DNA of 64,000 nucleotides from Nautilia sp. PV-1 (lineage in GTDB: Bacteria > Campylobacterota > Campylobacteria > Campylobacterales > Nautiliaceae). The stretch's first letter is position 1. Every line of letters begins with the position of its first letter. The notes beneath the pieces were generated by a model. The model did not search any database. It was not told the DNA's origin and saw only the letters and a list, made by a program, of their open reading frames with translations. Positions 30,654 to 59,655 of this stretch are shown one piece after another. The DNA lies in assembly GCF_004006315.1 (NCBI RefSeq), contig NZ_CP026530.1:1292501-1356500 (forward strand), read 5' to 3'. The position numbers were made by a program, and so were the translations under genes.

Positions 30654-30681
30654 CTCAATTCTCAATTCTCAATTCTCTCTC
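30654..30681. repeat. Heptamer array, unit CTCAATT
   Basis: Three exact CTCAATT units and a degenerate fourth. In the xseA sense direction the unit reads AATTGAG. It follows xseA behind a hairpin, and a partner array overlaps the xseA stop at 30727-30743. Confidence 0.85.
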
Positions 30682-33382: not shown

Positions 33383-33868
33383 TTAAAATGGTATTTCTTC
33401 GTCATCTATATCGATTGACGGAATATTATTGTTTTGATTTTGTTTCTGCTGCATCTGAGGCTGCTGCGGAGCCGGCTGCTGATAAGCATTTTGCTGATTA
33501 TAGTTATTAGTCTGATAACCGCCGGTTTCGTCACCGCTTGATTTGTTCTCCATAAACTGCACTTTTTCGGCAACTATAGAATGTTTGCTGCGTTTTTGCC
33601 CAGTCTGGTCAACCCACTGGTCTAAAACCAGTCTGCCCTCAATAAGAACGCGTCTGCCTTTTCTGAGATACTGATTGGCAATTTCCGCGCTTCTTCCAAA
33701 TACCGTAATGTCAATAAACATTACTTCCTGTTTGTTTTCACCTGTAACATTGTCTTTGTATGTTCTGTTAGTAGCTAAGCCGAATTTGGCAATAGCGGTT
33801 CCCGTAGGAGTATATTTAAGTTCAACATCGCGTGTTAAATTTCCTACGAGAATAACTTTATTATACAT
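33383..33868 (-). CDS. ssb: Single-stranded DNA-binding protein
   Basis: This 161-residue protein has the OB fold (MYNKVILVGNLTRDVELKY, FIDITVFGRSAEIANQYLRKG, EGRLVLDQWVD), a Gln/Asn-rich linker and the acidic partner-binding tip DIDDEEIPF. It overlaps the rpsF end by 8 nt. It protects ssDNA in replication and repair. Confidence 0.98.
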   Translation of the reverse strand: MYNKVILVGNLTRDVELKYTPTGTAIAKFGLATNRTYKDNVTGENKQEVMFIDITVFGRSAEIANQYLRKGRRVLIEGRLVLDQWVDQTGQKRSKHSIVAEKVQFMENKSSGDETGGYQTNNYNQQNAYQQPAPQQPQMQQKQNQNNNIPSIDIDDEEIPF

Positions 33869-34196
33869 TTTTTACCATCTCTTCCCAGCGTTTAATTTCT
33901 TTTTTGTTTTCATATTTAACAGTCATGAATCTTAATAAATCTTCGTTATATCTCATCTGTCTTTCAAGCTCAAGAACTGCGCTTGCAGGTGCCTTATAAT
34001 AAACTATACTGTAATCACCTCTTTCGAATTTATTAATCGGATATGCTAGTTCTCTTACACCGATTTTATCTAATGCTGCTACTTCTCCACCGTTTTCTTT
34101 GATGGCGTTTTGAATGTTTTCGATGTTTTTAGCCTTTTCTTCGTCTGTAAGTGTAGGCTTAAGAATGAACATCGTTTCGTAATGTCTTAAACTCAT
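33861..34196 (-). CDS. rpsF: 30S ribosomal protein S6
   Basis: This 111-residue bS6 (MSLRHYETMFILKPTLTDEE) pairs with S18 on the 30S platform. It leads the rpsF-ssb-rpsR operon. AAGGAGAATTA precedes the ATG and can pair with an upstream CTCCTT, suggesting leader control. Confidence 0.97.
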   Translation of the reverse strand: MSLRHYETMFILKPTLTDEEKAKNIENIQNAIKENGGEVAALDKIGVRELAYPINKFERGDYSIVYYKAPASAVLELERQMRYNEDLLRFMTVKYENKKEIKRWEEMVKNV

Positions 34197-34306: not shown

Positions 34307-34338
34307 GTGGGTAGTATGTAGTAAGTAGTAAGTAGTTA
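34307..34338. repeat. Heptamer array, left inverted copy
   Basis: About four units of the GTAGTGG/GTAAGTA type read on the plus strand. The array at 34703-34735 is the inverted partner. Together they bracket the decayed four-helix-bundle gene. Confidence 0.8.
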
Positions 34339-34380
34339 AATGTTTTTATTTAATATTTTTAACATTTTTATATTTATAAG

Positions 34381-34677
34381 CTAATTTAACTCTTTTACCC
34401 ATTCAAAACCGTTTTTTTTATCTATATATTTAACATCAATTCCAATATATATCTGTGTTATAAGCTCTGCACATGAGCTTATGGAATATACCAAAAACCT
34501 TTTTTTATCTTTTTTACTACCTCTCTCAAAACCTTCTGCAATATTACTCGGAATTGAAAGGGCGATTCTTGTGATTTGGTCTTTAAAGCCAAAATCCCGG
34601 CATTGCGAAAAATATTTATATATACCCGCAGCCAATCTACAGCTTCTTTTTCAAACTTCCAATGTTTCATATTTCAT
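34381..34677 (-). pseudogene. Decayed four-helix-bundle protein gene (TIGR02436/S23-like)
   Basis: Reading from the ATG at 34677, the frame gives MKYETLEV, then TGA, then KRSCRLAAGIYKYFSQCRDF and GFKDQITRIALSIPSNIAEG. This matches the four-helix-bundle family (…LEVWKRS…IPSNIAEGF…). The TGA at 34651-34653 stands where the family has tryptophan. The frame ends early at KELN-TAG, with family-like but degraded sequence after it. Family members are ~115 residues. Such genes occur in 23S rRNA intervening sequences and beside diversity-generating retroelements. It is probably a pseudogene, bracketed by inverted heptamer arrays; UGA readthrough is less likely. Confidence 0.7.
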
Positions 34678-34702
34678 AAAATCACTTTTCTGTTTATTTT
34701 AT

Positions 34703-34735
34703 TACTACCCACTACCCACTACTCACTACCAACTT
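34703..34735. repeat. Heptamer array, right inverted copy
   Basis: On the minus strand the units read GGTAGTG, AGTAGTG, GGTAGTG, GGTAGTA. The array begins directly after the TAA of the acyl-CoA synthetase gene. Confidence 0.85.
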
Positions 34736-36284
34736 ATTTTATATATTCATCTATTTTATCCCTTAACACCCTTTTTAAAACTTTACCCGTTGCGTTTTTA
34801 GGAAGTTCTTCCACAAAATAGATGTGTTTAGGCACTTTATAATTTGCAAGCTGTGATTTTAAAAATTTCTTAAGTTCGCTTTCTTTTATTTCAGCGTCTT
34901 CTTCAAGTTCAATAAACGCCACCGGAATTTCGCCGCTTTGTTCATCTTTCATTCCAACAACCGCACACTCTTTTACTCCGTTAAATTTAAGACAGATTTC
35001 TTCTATTTCCCTTGGATAAATATTTACCCCTTTGCTGATAATAAGGTCTTTTTTTCTGTCAAGAATATATAAGTATCCGTCTTCGTCAAGTTTTCCTATA
35101 TCACCCGTTAGCAGCCATCCGTTTATAATAGTCTCTTCAGTAGCGTCTTCCCTTTTATAATATCCCTGCATTACATTGTCACCTTTGACAATAATCTCTC
35201 CGGCTTCTCCTACAGGCACTTCCATCAAATCGTCATTTACTATTTTAACTTTTACACCGGGTATTGCAGGACCTACCGAATAAGGTTTTTGAAGTTCAGG
35301 TCTGTTTACTGCGACAACCGGAGATGTTTCACTTAGCCCGTACCCTTCAAGAAGTTTTCCTTTTTTAAATTTTTTTGAAAATCTTTCAAGTACCTCCCCA
35401 GGCAGCGCCGCAGCACCGGAAATATAAAATCTTACTTTATTAAACCAGTGAAAATAAAAAGGAAGTTTCGCACGGCTGAGAGCTGAATAAACATCAGGCA
35501 CACCAGTAAAAATAGTAACTTTTTTAAGGAGTGTCTGTTTGATGATATTGCTAAAAGGCATTATCGACTTTATAATCACTACCGGAGCTCCGTAAAACAT
35601 AGGCAGCATAATATTAACAGTCAGAGTAAAAGAGTGAAACATAGGAAGATATGCAATGAATCTGTCTTTATGATTCAGCTTTATAAGCTCGTTGACTCCG
35701 TATATGTTTGAAAAAATATTTTTATAGCTAAGCATTGCCCCTTTAGGCTTTCCGGTTGTTCCCGATGTATAAATAATAAAAGCCAAATCGTCTATTTTAG
35801 GAAGCTCTGCTACTTCGTGAGATTCAAAATTTGAAAGAATTTCACTAAAAGAAATATTTTCGCTGTCTACGTTTTTAACATCCCCTTCCCATATTATTTT
35901 TTTAATATTTGTTTTATTTCTTATGTTCTTTAAATTATTTTCAAATTTGGCACTTGCAACCATCAGTTGAGCTTCAACATCGTTTACAATATATGCTATT
36001 TCATCTTCTTTTAAGAAAGTATTTATCGGTACAGGTACCGCGCCTATTTTTTGTATTCCCAAAAGAGCAACAATATATTCAATAGAATTTCCTACAAGAA
36101 CAGGAACCTTGTCATATTTTTTAACGTCTAAAAATTCCAGTGTTCTTGCGAAAGTATCAACTTTCTTTTTTACCCTGCCCCAGCTGATTTTTCTGTCATC
36201 AATAAAATACGCCGTTTTCTTTGGAAATTTTTTTGCATTTTTTTCCAACACTTCGTAAAAATTATTAAATTCGTAATTAAACAT
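34734..36284 (-). CDS. AMP-forming acyl-CoA synthetase (FadD-like)
   Basis: This 516-residue adenylating enzyme activates a carboxylic acid, probably a long-chain fatty acid, to its CoA thioester. The P-loop is IIYTSGTTGKPKGAML, followed by GYGLSETSPVVAVN, GWLLTGDIGKLDEDGYLYI, DRKKDLIISKGVNIYPREIE and the catalytic lysine region PKNATGKVLKRVLR. Substrate specificity cannot be read from the sequence. It is monocistronic, and its stop adjoins a heptamer array. Confidence 0.92.
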   Translation of the reverse strand: MFNYEFNNFYEVLEKNAKKFPKKTAYFIDDRKISWGRVKKKVDTFARTLEFLDVKKYDKVPVLVGNSIEYIVALLGIQKIGAVPVPINTFLKEDEIAYIVNDVEAQLMVASAKFENNLKNIRNKTNIKKIIWEGDVKNVDSENISFSEILSNFESHEVAELPKIDDLAFIIYTSGTTGKPKGAMLSYKNIFSNIYGVNELIKLNHKDRFIAYLPMFHSFTLTVNIMLPMFYGAPVVIIKSIMPFSNIIKQTLLKKVTIFTGVPDVYSALSRAKLPFYFHWFNKVRFYISGAAALPGEVLERFSKKFKKGKLLEGYGLSETSPVVAVNRPELQKPYSVGPAIPGVKVKIVNDDLMEVPVGEAGEIIVKGDNVMQGYYKREDATEETIINGWLLTGDIGKLDEDGYLYILDRKKDLIISKGVNIYPREIEEICLKFNGVKECAVVGMKDEQSGEIPVAFIELEEDAEIKESELKKFLKSQLANYKVPKHIYFVEELPKNATGKVLKRVLRDKIDEYIK

Positions 36285-37350: not shown

Positions 37351-37392
37351 TTGATGGTTGATGGTTAATAGTAAACGGTTAATGGTTGGGTG
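37351..37392. repeat. Heptamer array, unit TTGATGG/TTAATGG
   Basis: Six in-phase units begin about 11 nt after the flgS stop and reach the 5' limit of the convergent prepilin's 3' region. The sense strand contains only one C. Confidence 0.85.
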
Positions 37393-37403: not shown

Positions 37404-37889
37404 TCAGTATATGGTCTGTTCACATTCTTCTTTTGTTACATTTACCCCGTCAATACATTCCAGTGTTCCGGATGTTGCATTGTAATCGATTTTCAGGATT
37501 TTTGAAGGATTGTAAATATATTCGTATTCATTGTCATTATACTCTTTCCAGCAGCTTTGCGTTCTGTTTCCGCAGCTTGGTACCGGAATTTTCAACACAT
37601 ATTTAAACAATGACGTTTCACCTTTCCCGCTGTCAAGTGAAGTAGGATAACCTTCTGTATTTAAGTCGCTTGTACCGTCTCCGTCAGGATCCCAGACATA
37701 ATTGTCGTTTATTATCCATTTACCGTGAATATTGTCAATTGAAGACTGAACTGTTGTGACAACAGATTTTATACTCGAAGATTTTGCGTGAGTTGTTAGA
37801 TTTTTAAATTTCGGAATGGCGAAAGAGGCCAAAAGGCCTATTATAACAATTACGAAAATAAGTTCTATTAACGTAAACGCTTTTTTCAT
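37404..37889 (-). CDS. Type IV pilus prepilin (MSHA type)
   Basis: This 161-residue prepilin has the class III signal KKAFTLIELIFVIVIIGLL with the cleavage site before Phe and Glu at mature position +5. The C-terminal part has four cysteines that could form pilin disulfides (PSCGNRTQSCW; LECIDGVNVTKEEC). It overlaps the neighbouring prepilin gene as TGATG. It is the last gene of the pilus operon and probably a minor or second major pilin. Confidence 0.9.
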   Translation of the reverse strand: MKKAFTLIELIFVIVIIGLLASFAIPKFKNLTTHAKSSSIKSVVTTVQSSIDNIHGKWIINDNYVWDPDGDGTSDLNTEGYPTSLDSGKGETSLFKYVLKIPVPSCGNRTQSCWKEYNDNEYEYIYNPSKILKIDYNATSGTLECIDGVNVTKEECEQTIY

Positions 37890-38335
37890 CAGTAAGTAAG
37901 ATTTACATCCACAGACGTTTTATCACCGAGTAATGTTTTACATTTCTCCTGTGTTGTTGTATCGTTAAATTCATCACAGTTAATTTTATATTCTACTTTA
38001 TCGTTTGCTTTATCCAATATAATTGATGCAACCTCATTATTATTAATCGGTTCGTCATAATAGTATTTTCCGTCATTTACGGTACTATCATATTTCCAAC
38101 CTTTACCTTTTAAAGAAATTAAATCTTCTAAAGTATAAGAGGTGTTATTTTCCAAATCTCTTTGGTTAATTGCAGCTTCAACAGCCTGTTGAGCACCGTC
38201 AACCGTAGTTTTTACAACAGTGCTTGCTTCTGCGTTTTGCTTAAGATTTACAAACTTTGGTACGGCAACTGCAGCTAAAAGTCCGATAATAACGATAACA
38301 AAAATCAGTTCTATAAGCGTAAAAGCTTTTCTCAT
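37889..38335 (-). CDS. Type IV pilus prepilin (MSHA type, probable major pilin)
   Basis: This 148-residue prepilin begins MRKAFTLIELIFVIVIIGLL, followed by AAVAVPKFVNLKQNAEASTV. A C-terminal disulfide could join the Cys in EYKINCDEF and the one in EKCKTLLG. AAGGAGTAGAA gives a strong start, consistent with high expression. Its order after the MshG-like gene matches mshA/mshB of MSHA loci. Confidence 0.9.
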   Translation of the reverse strand: MRKAFTLIELIFVIVIIGLLAAVAVPKFVNLKQNAEASTVVKTTVDGAQQAVEAAINQRDLENNTSYTLEDLISLKGKGWKYDSTVNDGKYYYDEPINNNEVASIILDKANDKVEYKINCDEFNDTTTQEKCKTLLGDKTSVDVNLTY

Positions 38336-46934: not shown

Positions 46935-47384
46935 TCACCTTATAGCTCCGGTTATCGGATATATCGTTATATTCTGTTCTTTATTCCTGTATTTTAGCGA
47001 AATAATTATATTAGTATGTACCATTTTTGTCAAATCAGTATCTATTTCCCCGTCAAAAGGTCTTCCTAAATAGTCAAAGCAAAGAGTGTTCCCGTTTAAA
47101 CCCTGCAATACACTTATATCAGATTTAAACGTATAATGAACTTTTTCGCTTGAATTTTTATCCTCGCTGTTTAACCAGTCTTTATTAAAAGTAATACACA
47201 CATAATCATCTGTTCCTGTTGTTTTGTAACCTAACGCATTTGATTTTGTCTGCAGTATTTTTTCTTTAAGCATTTGTGTATCCACCGTAAGTGTTTCATC
47301 CGGTATAAACTGCATTCCCACAAAAGTAAGAATACCCATAATAACAATTACAAAAATCAGTTCTATTAAACTAAACGCTTTCAT
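46935..47384 (-). CDS. Minor pseudopilin-like prepilin (MSHA type)
   Basis: This 149-residue prepilin starts MKAFSLIELIFVIVIMGIL, then has an all-beta C-terminal domain with two cysteines (DDYVCITFN, NTLCFDYLG). Its Cys-containing DYLGRPF strand recalls MshC/MshD-type minor pilins. The start overlaps the stop of the preceding prepilin-like gene by one base. Confidence 0.85.
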   Translation of the reverse strand: MKAFSLIELIFVIVIMGILTFVGMQFIPDETLTVDTQMLKEKILQTKSNALGYKTTGTDDYVCITFNKDWLNSEDKNSSEKVHYTFKSDISVLQGLNGNTLCFDYLGRPFDGEIDTDLTKMVHTNIIISLKYRNKEQNITIYPITGAIR

Positions 47385-47830
47385 TACGGCCTTTGCAGTG
47401 TGATTTTTTCTAATTTTATTTTTTTATCGTTGTTTTTAGGATTGCTTGTATTACTCTCAACTGTTACTTTTAACAACACATATCCGTGCGATTCCGGTGT
47501 GGATATTTTTACGGCATTTCCACACGGACAGTCGTTTAAATCATAACAGTAATACCTTAAAACATCTACATTAGCTGTAAATCTTTTATCTTCGTCTTCA
47601 AAAGTCATATGTTCCAAACATCCGTTATTCGCTTTTCTGTCATATCCTTCTATAGCCTGAATAGAATTTTCTATAGCGCTTTGCATAAAAAGCTGAGCCC
47701 TTTGCTGAAGATAAGAATCTCCGGTATGTTTAACCGTAACAAATGAAAATTTTACTACGATAACCATTAATGTCGCAACAAGCAGCATTATAATCAAAGC
47801 GCTTATTACCCCGAAACCTTTTCTCTGCAT
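47384..47830 (-). CDS. MshP/PilX-like minor prepilin
   Basis: This 148-residue protein has MQRKGFGVISALIIMLLVAT, a prepilin-like N-terminus without the Glu+5, as in MshP/PilX proteins. Four cysteines follow (GCLEH, YCYDLNDCPCG). It lies between other minor pilin genes. A role in pilus tip assembly is inferred from the synteny. Confidence 0.75.
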   Translation of the reverse strand: MQRKGFGVISALIIMLLVATLMVIVVKFSFVTVKHTGDSYLQQRAQLFMQSAIENSIQAIEGYDRKANNGCLEHMTFEDEDKRFTANVDVLRYYCYDLNDCPCGNAVKISTPESHGYVLLKVTVESNTSNPKNNDKKIKLEKITLQRP

Positions 47831-47831
47831 T

Positions 47832-48788
47832 TTAAAAAGCCACCTTCTGTTTTGATACCGATATATTTATATCGGCTCTGCTTTTAAAAAGCTCCAGTTT
47901 AAGCATAAGATGATAATTGATTTTTTTCACCCTGAATGATTTTACATTTGAAGCCAGCAAAGTAACGTTTCCGTCTCCGCCGTCACCGCAAAATGTCTCA
48001 CCCAGCCACGGTCTGTAATTATAAAACAAAAGCAGATCGTCGTTTTTAAACTTGTCAAAACTTACGCCGCAGTTCCATTTTGAGATATTTAAATCTTTTT
48101 TTAAAGCTATGGCATAGGCGCTGTCTGCCAGATAAAACTTTTCATATATTTTAATTCCGGACACATCACTTCCGTCATACCTTGTGAGATTAAGATCACA
48201 GTCGCTGCCGTTTTGGGTATAACTGCTTATACGAAAAACATAATCGGCTCTGTTTCCGTGCCAGCCGAAAGCGTTTTTATATTTATACAAAGCGGCTTCG
48301 CTTCCCCTGTCAAAACTTCCGGCAAATATCACTGACGTCAAATCCTTAAGCGTTTTTGCAGTACTGTATTTATTCTGCAGTATTGTATTTATAAAACTGC
48401 TGTTGAAATCAACGGCTTTTAAAACAGGCTTTTTACTTGCATAAAGATCCGCAAATCCGCTGAGATTCGCATCCACCATCGCATCATTCAGATAACCTAT
48501 CCATTCCAAAACAGGAAAATCGTCAGTGTCAGTTATATTTCCGATGTATTTAAAATTCCCGGTAGACTGATTATAGCCTATTACACTTAAAGGAACCCTG
48601 TAATATATGAGAGACGCCACCTGGTCTAAAACCTGCTGGGAAACAAATTCAAATTTAGAAGTCTGTTTTGCGATGTAGTTTCTTACATACAGCTTGCTGA
48701 TAATCTGAAAACCGCCTATTAAAATAAAAGCCAGTATTACAATTACAAAAATCGCTTCTATTAAAGTAAAACTCTTTTTAATTCTCAA
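47832..48788 (-). CDS. MshO-like large minor prepilin
   Basis: This 318-residue prepilin begins MRIKKSFTLIEAIFVIVILA. The TTG start and the GGAG-containing ribosome binding site both lie inside a heptamer array (48780-48812). The long C-terminal domain has a paired-cysteine region (WNCGVSFDKF, GETFCGDGGDG). Size and position match MshO. Confidence 0.82.
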   Translation of the reverse strand: MRIKKSFTLIEAIFVIVILAFILIGGFQIISKLYVRNYIAKQTSKFEFVSQQVLDQVASLIYYRVPLSVIGYNQSTGNFKYIGNITDTDDFPVLEWIGYLNDAMVDANLSGFADLYASKKPVLKAVDFNSSFINTILQNKYSTAKTLKDLTSVIFAGSFDRGSEAALYKYKNAFGWHGNRADYVFRISSYTQNGSDCDLNLTRYDGSDVSGIKIYEKFYLADSAYAIALKKDLNISKWNCGVSFDKFKNDDLLLFYNYRPWLGETFCGDGGDGNVTLLASNVKSFRVKKINYHLMLKLELFKSRADINISVSKQKVAF

Positions 48789-48812
48789 TTCTCAATTCTC
48801 CATTCTCAATTT
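48780..48812. repeat. Heptamer array, unit AATTCTC
   Basis: Three exact AATTCTC units and one CATTCTC. In the gene direction (GAGAATT) the array begins within 7 nt of the TGA of the upstream prepilin gene and runs into the next gene's start codon. Confidence 0.9.
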
Positions 48813-48814
48813 AT

Positions 48815-49444
48815 TCACCACTGTACGCTGTTTATTTTAATATGCCCGATATTGGCGCTGTAATAACTGACTGAAGATATTGTCTGATTATTAAAAGAAA
48901 CGGTTACATTTATTCTTTTGATATTTGTTTTGGTGTTGTCGCTGGTTTTGGTAAAGTGAAAAGACAGACTGCCGTTTGAATAATCGCTTTTATTCCATTC
49001 ATCCGTATAGCCTGCAGTAATTTTTAGCGTATATACCACTCTTCCGTCTTTTGTGGTATTCTCTTCTATTCCGTTGTAATCGTCTACGTCGTCATAAGGA
49101 GGTTCGTTTGCGTCCTTGCCTATACTGCTCTCGAAAATTCCGTCTTTACAGTTTCTGCTTCCCGCGAACCCTCCTAATCTGTATCCGCTGCTTGCATTAC
49201 AGTCCAAAACGTTTTTAGGCGGGTCGTTTACAAGAAGTATATCGTCGTAATTTGTGTTTTGCTCGTCATATTCCTTTAACGAAATATCCATTATTTTAGA
49301 CATCATATTAAATATCGCGTCCTCTTTTTTAGAAAATTCCAAAGATTTATTGCTTATATATATTATTTTAGGAATCACCGTAAAAACAGCGGCAATTATT
49401 ACAATCGTAAATATAAGCTCAATTAAAGTTAAAGATTTCCTCAA
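48815..49444 (-). CDS. MshD-like minor prepilin
   Basis: This 209-residue prepilin begins [20 protein letters not shown]. The C-terminal domain has two cysteines ([18 protein letters not shown]) and an all-beta tail. It starts with TTG overlapping the prfB stop (TTGA). A heptamer array follows its TGA. Confidence 0.82.
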
Positions 49445-55723: not shown

Positions 55724-56633
55724 CCTACTTGCATTTTCAGCGGGAGTGGATTCAACTGCCCTTTTTTTCCGGCTTATGGAAAATAATATATCTTTTGATA
55801 TGGCCATTGTCAATTACCATACCAGAGAAACCAGTAATGAAGAAGTCGAATATGCCAAAGAGCTTGCACGCAAATATAATAAAAAAATTTATATTAAAGA
55901 CTGTTATTTAGAAAAATTTTCTGAAAAATCGGCAAGGGAATGCAGATACAGATTTTTTGAAGAAATTATAAAAAATCACGGCTATGATACACTCATTACA
56001 GCCCATCAGTTAAACGACAGATTCGAATGGCTTTTGATGCAGCTTGGAAAAGGCGCAGGTCTTAAAGAAATAATAGCAATGGGTGAATGGGAGGAGAGAG
56101 AGGGTTATAAAATATACAGACCTTTTTATAATGTATCTCGTAAAGAAATTGTAGCTTTTTTAAATGAAAAGGGAATTAAATATTTTATAGACCGCAGTAA
56201 TTTTGACAAAAAATATAAAAGAAATTTTATAAGAGACGAATTTGCGAATAAATTCATCGATCTGTATGCCGAAGGAGTAAAAAAAAGTTTTGAATATCTT
56301 GAAAATGATTTAAACCTGCTCTTTCAGAAAAACTGGAAAAAAAAAGAAAAACTCTACAGATTTCAAAAAACATCGCCAGAAATAGACATTAAAAAAACAG
56401 ACCTTATTTTAAAAGAACTGGGAGTCATAATGAGCAAAGCTCAAAGGGATGAGGTAATAAAAACTGGTTTTTCATGTGTAATACAGGGCAAAATCGCAAT
56501 AGACAGCAATGAAAAACATATCTATATAGCACCTTATATAAAAACCGCAATGGATAAAGAATTCAAAGAAAAAATGAGAAAAGAAAAAATACCTCCAAAA
56601 GTCAGAGGATATATTTATAAATTTGACAGTTGA
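55704..56633 (+). CDS. tilS: tRNA(Ile)-lysidine synthase
   Basis: This 309-residue ATPase adds lysine to C34 of tRNA-Ile(CAU). The PP-loop is LAFSAGVDSTALFF, and ITAHQLNDRFEWLLMQLGKG and RKEIVAFLNEKGIKYFIDRS follow; a basic linker region continues to the end. The C-terminal domain is short, as in Campylobacterota. The TTG start lies inside rimO. Its TGA stop lies in the first unit of a heptamer array. Confidence 0.92.
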   Translation: MEKSSNNLLAFSAGVDSTALFFRLMENNISFDMAIVNYHTRETSNEEVEYAKELARKYNKKIYIKDCYLEKFSEKSARECRYRFFEEIIKNHGYDTLITAHQLNDRFEWLLMQLGKGAGLKEIIAMGEWEEREGYKIYRPFYNVSRKEIVAFLNEKGIKYFIDRSNFDKKYKRNFIRDEFANKFIDLYAEGVKKSFEYLENDLNLLFQKNWKKKEKLYRFQKTSPEIDIKKTDLILKELGVIMSKAQRDEVIKTGFSCVIQGKIAIDSNEKHIYIAPYIKTAMDKEFKEKMRKEKIPPKVRGYIYKFDS

Positions 56634-56677
56634 CTGTTGATAGTTAATAGTTGATGGTTAATGGTTTATAGTTGATG
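56629..56677. repeat. Heptamer array, unit GTTGATG/GTTAATA
   Basis: Seven in-phase units (GTTGACT, GTTGATA, GTTAATA, GTTGATG, GTTAATG, GTTTATA, GTTGATG). The first contains the tilS stop codon. Confidence 0.92.
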
Positions 56678-59185: not shown

Positions 59186-59652
59186 TTCTTTGGAATTTTA
59201 CCAAAAAAGTAATAATAAGCAAACATAATTATTGAAAAATCTATACAAACATCAGCAAAATTAAATATTGCAAAATCAAATCCGCAGTGCCAGTATACAT
59301 AATCAACAACACCGCCTCTTATAAATCTGTCAGAAAGATTGGATAAAGCTGCTGCAAACAGTATACCGCTTATTACAGGATGAGTGAAAATAAGCTTTTC
59401 TTTATAAAACACATAAATAAGCACTCCTATTAAAATCAGCTGAATATATTTTAAATATGCGCCCAAAAAAGCAAACATGGAAAAAGCCACACCTTTATTA
59501 AACGTAAGAACTAAAGAAATGCACCTGCTGTTAAATTCAAAACCTTGTAAAAAAACATATTTTATCAATTGGTCTATAATAAATATTAAAAAAAACGCAC
59601 TTAAAAACTTAACCGCTAACTTTTTCTCAATTCTCAATTCTCCATTCCCCAT
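59176..59652 (-). CDS. lspA: Lipoprotein signal peptidase (signal peptidase II)
   Basis: This 158-residue aspartic protease has four TM helices. The catalytic segments are ALSNLSDRFIRGGVVDYV and FAIFNFADVCIDFSI (two Asp). It cleaves the lipobox of the prolipoproteins in this window. The first ~8 residues (MGNGELRIEKK) are coded by a heptamer array directly after the glmM stop. The last residues and TAG lie inside the tRNA-Val gene. Confidence 0.95.
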   Translation of the reverse strand: MGNGELRIEKKLAVKFLSAFFLIFIIDQLIKYVFLQGFEFNSRCISLVLTFNKGVAFSMFAFLGAYLKYIQLILIGVLIYVFYKEKLIFTHPVISGILFAAALSNLSDRFIRGGVVDYVYWHCGFDFAIFNFADVCIDFSIIMFAYYYFFGKIPKKVA

Positions 59653-59653
59653 T
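59626..59653. repeat. Heptamer array, unit CTCAATT
   Basis: Two exact CTCAATT units, then CTCCATT and CCCCATT. In sense direction the array starts 2-4 nt after the glmM TAA and includes the lspA start codon. Confidence 0.88.
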
Positions 59654-59655
59654 CT

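Follow-up and report, generated by a model that had tools for sequence, protein, structure and literature searches.

A decayed S23/IVP gene between inverted heptamer arms in Nautilia sp. PV-1, probably one member of a widespread group of minimal insertion cassettes

In a 64,000-nucleotide stretch of the genome of Nautilia sp. PV-1 (contig NZ_CP026530.1, positions 1,292,501 to 1,356,500; hereafter the window), two inverted arrays of GTAGTGG-type heptamers bracket a short, broken gene of the S23/IVP family at positions 34307-34735, which raises the question of whether such a unit inserts as a whole and of how its repeats are related to its gene. S23/IVP proteins have been familiar from 23S rRNA insertions for decades, and no function is known for them. 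Heptamer arrays, for their part, are reported to be the commonest tandem repeats of prokaryotic intergenic regions (PMC6344855), and the same report sees "no clear clue" to what they do. Linking the two makes both open questions testable through one protein and one DNA substrate. We consider it probable that the GTAGTGG unit belongs to a widespread kind of minimal insertion cassette and has since decayed.

The initial annotation had described inverted GTAGTGG-type arrays around a degraded TIGR02436/S23-like gene, and both parts of this description were confirmed. The arrays lie at 34307-34336, with the core GTAGTATGTAGTAAGTAGTAAGTAGT at 34311-34336, and at 34704-34734, with the core ACTACCCACTACCCACTACTCACTAC. 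Matched in inverted orientation they score 15.5, whereas 1,546 pairs of the same geometry elsewhere in the window average 7.9, one of them scoring equally high. The orientation needed correction: read with the gene, the array at 34704-34734 (minus strand) is the 5' arm, a G-rich heptamer array (GTAGTGAGTAGTGGGTAGTGGGTAGT) immediately past the stop codon of an AMP ligase, and that at 34307-34336 (minus strand) is the 3' arm, C-rich on the gene strand and the inverted complement of the 5' arm. The enclosed four-helix-bundle gene (34381-34677, minus strand) exceeds the cut-offs of profile searches with both PF05635 (E 6e-24; 84.7 bits, cut-off 33.8) and TIGR02436 (79.4 bits, cut-off 24). Its frame is not intact, with an in-frame TGA near codon 9, at the Trp of the "LxVWK" motif of its homologues, plus an early TAG. 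The terminal inverted repeats of the unit close a stem around the S23p open reading frame, and the site lies between the AMP ligase and rpsF, not in a 23S rRNA gene.

This arrangement is not confined to one broken copy. The genome holds five PF05635 genes, the four other than the GTAGTGG copy being intact, and inverted arms of short repeats bracket all five, each with a word of its own: TTGAGAA, GTAGTGG, AAGGTTG, the 8-mer ACTTATCT and the degenerate GTTATTTGTTATTGG. The general design is a cassette of 430-500 bp, consisting of a single S23/IVP four-helix-bundle gene, ribosome-binding site included, and an inverted arm of about 3-5 heptamers (modal length 28-35 nt) on either side, with the G-rich strand pointing inward at both ends. 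Terminal repeats are not shared between copies, and 68 distinct heptamer units were counted among 73 elements.

Within the order, the PF05635 family was found in 34 of 100 genomes, and a period-7 signal stood beside the gene at 41 of 57 loci, compared with 1-6 of 57 at distances of 200-1200 bp; other periods gave no comparable signal at these loci, the double period 14 excepted. The arms of one locus also match each other: their mean reverse-complement score at the same 57 loci is 19.0, whereas pairing arms of different loci yields 8.0, far flanks reach 7.7 and the direct orientation gives 9.1. This mutual complementarity exceeded the 99th percentile of the far flanks at 49 of the 57 loci. In other phyla, 53 of 80 loci passed the same mark, as did 24 of 33 viral contigs, a set that includes some near-copies; the complementary flanks mostly show period 7. 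Complementary arms were likewise present at the S23/IVP loci of four named plasmids, and a phage collection returned zero matches with the query used. In ParE toxin genes, taken from the same genomes as a control, neither property appeared (0/27 for both period 7 and arm complementarity; p 3e-15 and 4e-11, respectively). The initial annotation would have been refuted by intact homologues that never have flanking arrays; this refutation fails, as most intact homologues do carry them. Unexplained 7-base repeats of bacteria are hereby tied to a specific, apparently inserting gene cassette, across phyla and with controls, and we regard it as very probable that the unit is a real, general and inserted structure.

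At one plasmid locus, on pPg_01 of Pseudanabaena galeata (L343), an S23/IVP gene lies between cas6 and cas4 with long AAAGCTA arrays on both sides, the two sides being largely in direct orientation. The "23S rRNA IVP" has been scored as CRISPR-associated (PMC10910872), and the position of this cassette on one plasmid may help to explain that score.

Insertion is best followed at junctions that relatives leave empty. Cassettes occupy stop/start junctions inside operons, with the flanking genes unbroken, and the 3' arm frequently encodes the first residues of the next protein. At hldD-hldE, three relatives (G048, G088 and G033) keep an overlapping ATGA stop/start, whereas the genome of strain PV-1 has an arm-gene-arm insert of ~480 bp; given that these relatives are array-free at this junction, the arms and the gene arrived there together. 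The proposal of a candidate mobile cassette made in the initial annotation therefore finds support, in the form of a widespread insertion cassette, from a filled site with a clean empty counterpart in three relatives. The junctions emrA-emrB, hldD-hldE and ugd are each filled by more than one subfamily, and the tpi-fabI and murC junction groups form one clade each, in a tree built by a quick method with support only from the Shimodaira-Hasegawa-like approximate likelihood ratio test (SH-aLRT). In the genome G085, three identical S23/IVP genes (L035, L057 and L058) sit inside 23S rRNA genes and are bordered by heptamer arms of the same type. Stops in all three frames were moderately enriched in 5' arms (42 versus 25 expected). 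A corresponding enrichment of stop-free frames in 3' arms was rejected, fully open frames being present in 39 of 98 against 47 expected.

The GTAGTGG copy itself lies between an acyl-CoA/AMP ligase (34734-36284, minus strand) upstream and rpsF (33861-34196, minus strand), followed by ssb and rpsR, downstream. In the same-genus genome G048, the orthologue of the ligase adjoins rpsF with no gene between, the S23 gene is absent, and the ~130 bp there hold a different, non-heptamer inverted repeat (L081:1930-2070); this junction is not a clean empty site.

What, then, are the heptamer arrays that stand alone? The initial annotation had suggested that the GTAGTGG unit is the parent form and that solo arrays are its footprints. 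The parentage has to be abandoned, as GTAGTGG arrays were found nowhere in the genome outside the cassette itself, and the strong solo arrays of the window are of the GAATTGA type, the word of another copy (L006). Three of these lie on the minus strand: at 30654-30677, past the xseA stop codon and G-rich on the coding strand; at 48780-48807, at a gene junction where the array forms the start of the next prepilin-like gene; and at 59624-59654, at the junction of the glmM stop and the lspA start. Seven is the sole enriched tandem period, both in the window and in sampled stretches of the genome, 464 kb in total; the latter contained 19 strong period-7 arrays against 0-1 at other periods, with 7 at period 14, the double unit.

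Solo arrays have a polarity. In unpaired arrays the coding strand is the G-rich strand, and arrays of C-rich sense were seen only downstream of a G-rich partner, as in hypF, in murE and after a tRNA gene. In-frame heptamer arrays are present within the conserved genes murE (L258:17820-18044), hypF (L246:3447-4188) and truB (L245:7720-7745); in murE a G-rich array is followed by 160 bp of native gene and then by the C-rich complement, and the array in truB is missing from four relatives. The words of solo arrays agree with the arms of their own genome (16.7, versus 7.4 for the arms of others; 0 of 2,000 permutations), some of these arrays lying within 1.5 kb of a cassette. Solo arrays were detected in 6 of 10 gene-positive but 1 of 12 gene-negative sampled genomes. 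As to the label of footprints, the sharing of units with cassettes of the same genome speaks in its favor, but the label is unproven because there are many more solo arrays than cassettes, GAATTGA sites alone numbering dozens, and because they also occur within genes. The same-genus genome has about 50 perfect GAATTGA heptamers in succession (G048:C1:725818-726174).

The nearest known system is the intervening sequence (IVS) of 23S rRNA in Leptospira and Coxiella, with which the cassette shares the protein family, a scale of 430 nt and terminal inverted repeats of ~28 bp, and the rRNA copies in this order (L035) bear the same kind of arms. The Coxiella IVS combines an inverted stem of 28 bp with an S23p open reading frame and, in its 5' region, tandem GACAGAT heptamers; RNase III cleaves it (PMC4990558). 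In contrast, the GTAGTGG copy and nearly all others found lie between protein genes, and the heptamer is specific to each copy. A first alternative explanation lies at the level of RNA: the arms would stay complementary because the transcript has to form a long stem around the gene, RNase III would cut it as in the rRNA, and the S23 protein would bind that RNA. The transcript of the unit indeed folds with the arms as a closing stem of ~30 bp (-106 kcal/mol, z -6.0), and the armed copies inside 23S rRNA and the Coxiella case agree with such a role. At shared junctions, own-arm pairs score 17.7 against 12.8 for arms paired crosswise with those of other species, which also agrees with a stem and, since the own partner is the better match, implies that both arms change together. 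Selection on an RNA stem should, however, preserve wobble pairs, and the arm mismatches of 121 elements point the other way: 87 retain a G-U pair, and 121 are mirror-image transitions that destroy it (p 0.02). A wobble-conserving stem was thus not supported, and selection on an RNA stem is argued against. Moreover, many copies have protein genes on either side, and excising them would sever the mRNA. We consider this explanation unlikely; on the sequence patterns, the complementarity of the arms looks like the result of shared origin or re-matching, and not of selection on RNA.

A second alternative takes the arrays for independent genomic heptamer repeats, either slippage products or regulator sites, as has been suggested for other bacteria, in or near which the gene merely tends to land. 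The excess of solo arrays over cassettes and the abundance of heptamers among prokaryotic intergenic repeats fit this view, as does uvrD-truB, a junction at which this genome alone holds the whole unit, whereas four relatives carry solo arrays that differ in their words and another is empty. It does not account for hldD-hldE, where gene and arms arrived jointly, for the confinement of GTAGTGG arrays to the flanks of this gene, for arms that are inverted and matched beyond mere proximity, or for the lack of arrays at ParE, another small mobile gene family, and it appears quite improbable. A role as operon regulator, in which the S23 protein would attach to the arms in its own mRNA and control translation of the flanking genes, the unit being kept as a useful and not a selfish insertion, is very improbable, given that the same junctions hold unrelated subfamilies or are empty in near relatives and that the gene occurs in only 34 of 100 genomes of the order, even though the arms overlap stop/start codons of operon genes, the 3' arm often provides the N-terminus of the next protein and some junction groups (tpi-fabI, murC) are one clade.

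Returning to the insertion cassette, comparison of sequences establishes the insertion of a whole unit at one site, the matching of arms within a copy, the preference for junctions and the association with solo arrays, and how it moves can be sketched only tentatively. The S23 protein, as a pentamer, would bind the arms by recognizing a 7-base period and no fixed sequence, and may help the ends of the cassette to synapse or anneal, while cutting and joining would fall to enzymes of the cell or to a further factor. Solved structures exist for two S23 relatives (2gsc and 2rld), and 2gsc is a homopentamer (PMC4990558); an arm of 28-35 nt would correspond to roughly one heptamer per protomer, which is a numerical hint only. 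Both arms may be made or re-matched together, and we propose that each copy has its own word because of this joint process. The cassette may be tolerated because its 5' arm tends to bear stops and translation can often run through its 3' arm, which then harmlessly lengthens the N-terminus of the next protein. We hold such a protein-driven mechanism to be possible but doubtful.

With similar reserve, the cassette can be put forward as a mobile element of a new class. Its ends would be set by a 7-base period and mutual complementarity and not by a fixed sequence, and it would encode a single factor, a pentameric four-helix-bundle protein. Its gene-less products would make up at least part of the bacterial heptamer arrays, and the IVSs of 23S rRNA would represent its form inserted into rRNA. 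Several observations weigh against the insertion cassette in general. Recombinase, transposase and reverse transcriptase are all absent from the unit, and an enzyme that could cut or join its ends was not found. Target-site duplications, for which the initial annotation had suggested looking, were not seen beyond ~2 bp at hldD-hldE, the single clean site. Apart from the rRNA copies, copies within one genome are at most 68% identical, and for this reason no recent burst of copying is seen outside rRNA. Finally, G033 has heptamer arrays yet no PF05635 gene, and some junctions, such as uvrD-truB, bear solo arrays in relatives without the gene there.

The protein family, the rRNA IVS and dispersed heptamer arrays are already known. 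Short tandemly repeated repetitive (STRR) sequences of cyanobacteria are dispersed heptamer arrays. Others are TAACTGA in Beggiatoaceae (PMC4679880), GGGAATC in Xanthomonas, where inverted pairs are common (PMC4692102), and GGACCGG in Geobacter, also inside genes (PMC2700814). The arrays of these three groups, so far as the parts of those papers considered here describe them, resemble ours in their period of 7 and their junction positions and are connected there with no gene family, whereas ours flank PF05635 genes with words that are copy-specific. Miniature inverted-repeat transposable elements and insertion sequences similarly have inverted ends around a short body and lie between and inside genes; the cassette differs in that its ends vary between copies, no transposase is present and no target duplication was seen. 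Beyond the Coxiella report, a literature search that left most subscription papers outside its scope, so that an earlier mention is possible, found no paper that ties PF05635/S23/IVP genes to inverted, copy-specific heptamer arms.

The initial annotation had also associated the gene family with diversity-generating retroelements (DGRs), and of this association the distant homology of the proteins remains, the Avd protein of DGRs being a distant relative of the S23 protein with a four-helix-bundle fold (PMC10053308). Weak PF05635 matches beside reverse transcriptases (G002:C37, G034:C18, and G011:C145 and C182) are probably Avd genes of DGRs. Two Avd-like loci beside reverse transcriptases (L067 and L068) lack heptamer arms, and a DGR origin of the arms was rejected. 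Unlike a DGR, the cassette is accompanied by no reverse transcriptase; movement driven by such an enzyme was likewise rejected, as RVT_1 is absent from this genome (G000) and from its congener G048, a result that rules out a resident enzyme of this family.

Two weaker solo arrays in the window lie on the plus strand, GTTGATGGTTAATAG at 56628-56677, past the tilS stop codon, and ATGGTTA at 37354-37387, past the stop codon of a sensor kinase. The window also contains clusters of prepilin-like genes at 37404-38335 and 47384-49444, one gene of which starts within a heptamer array.
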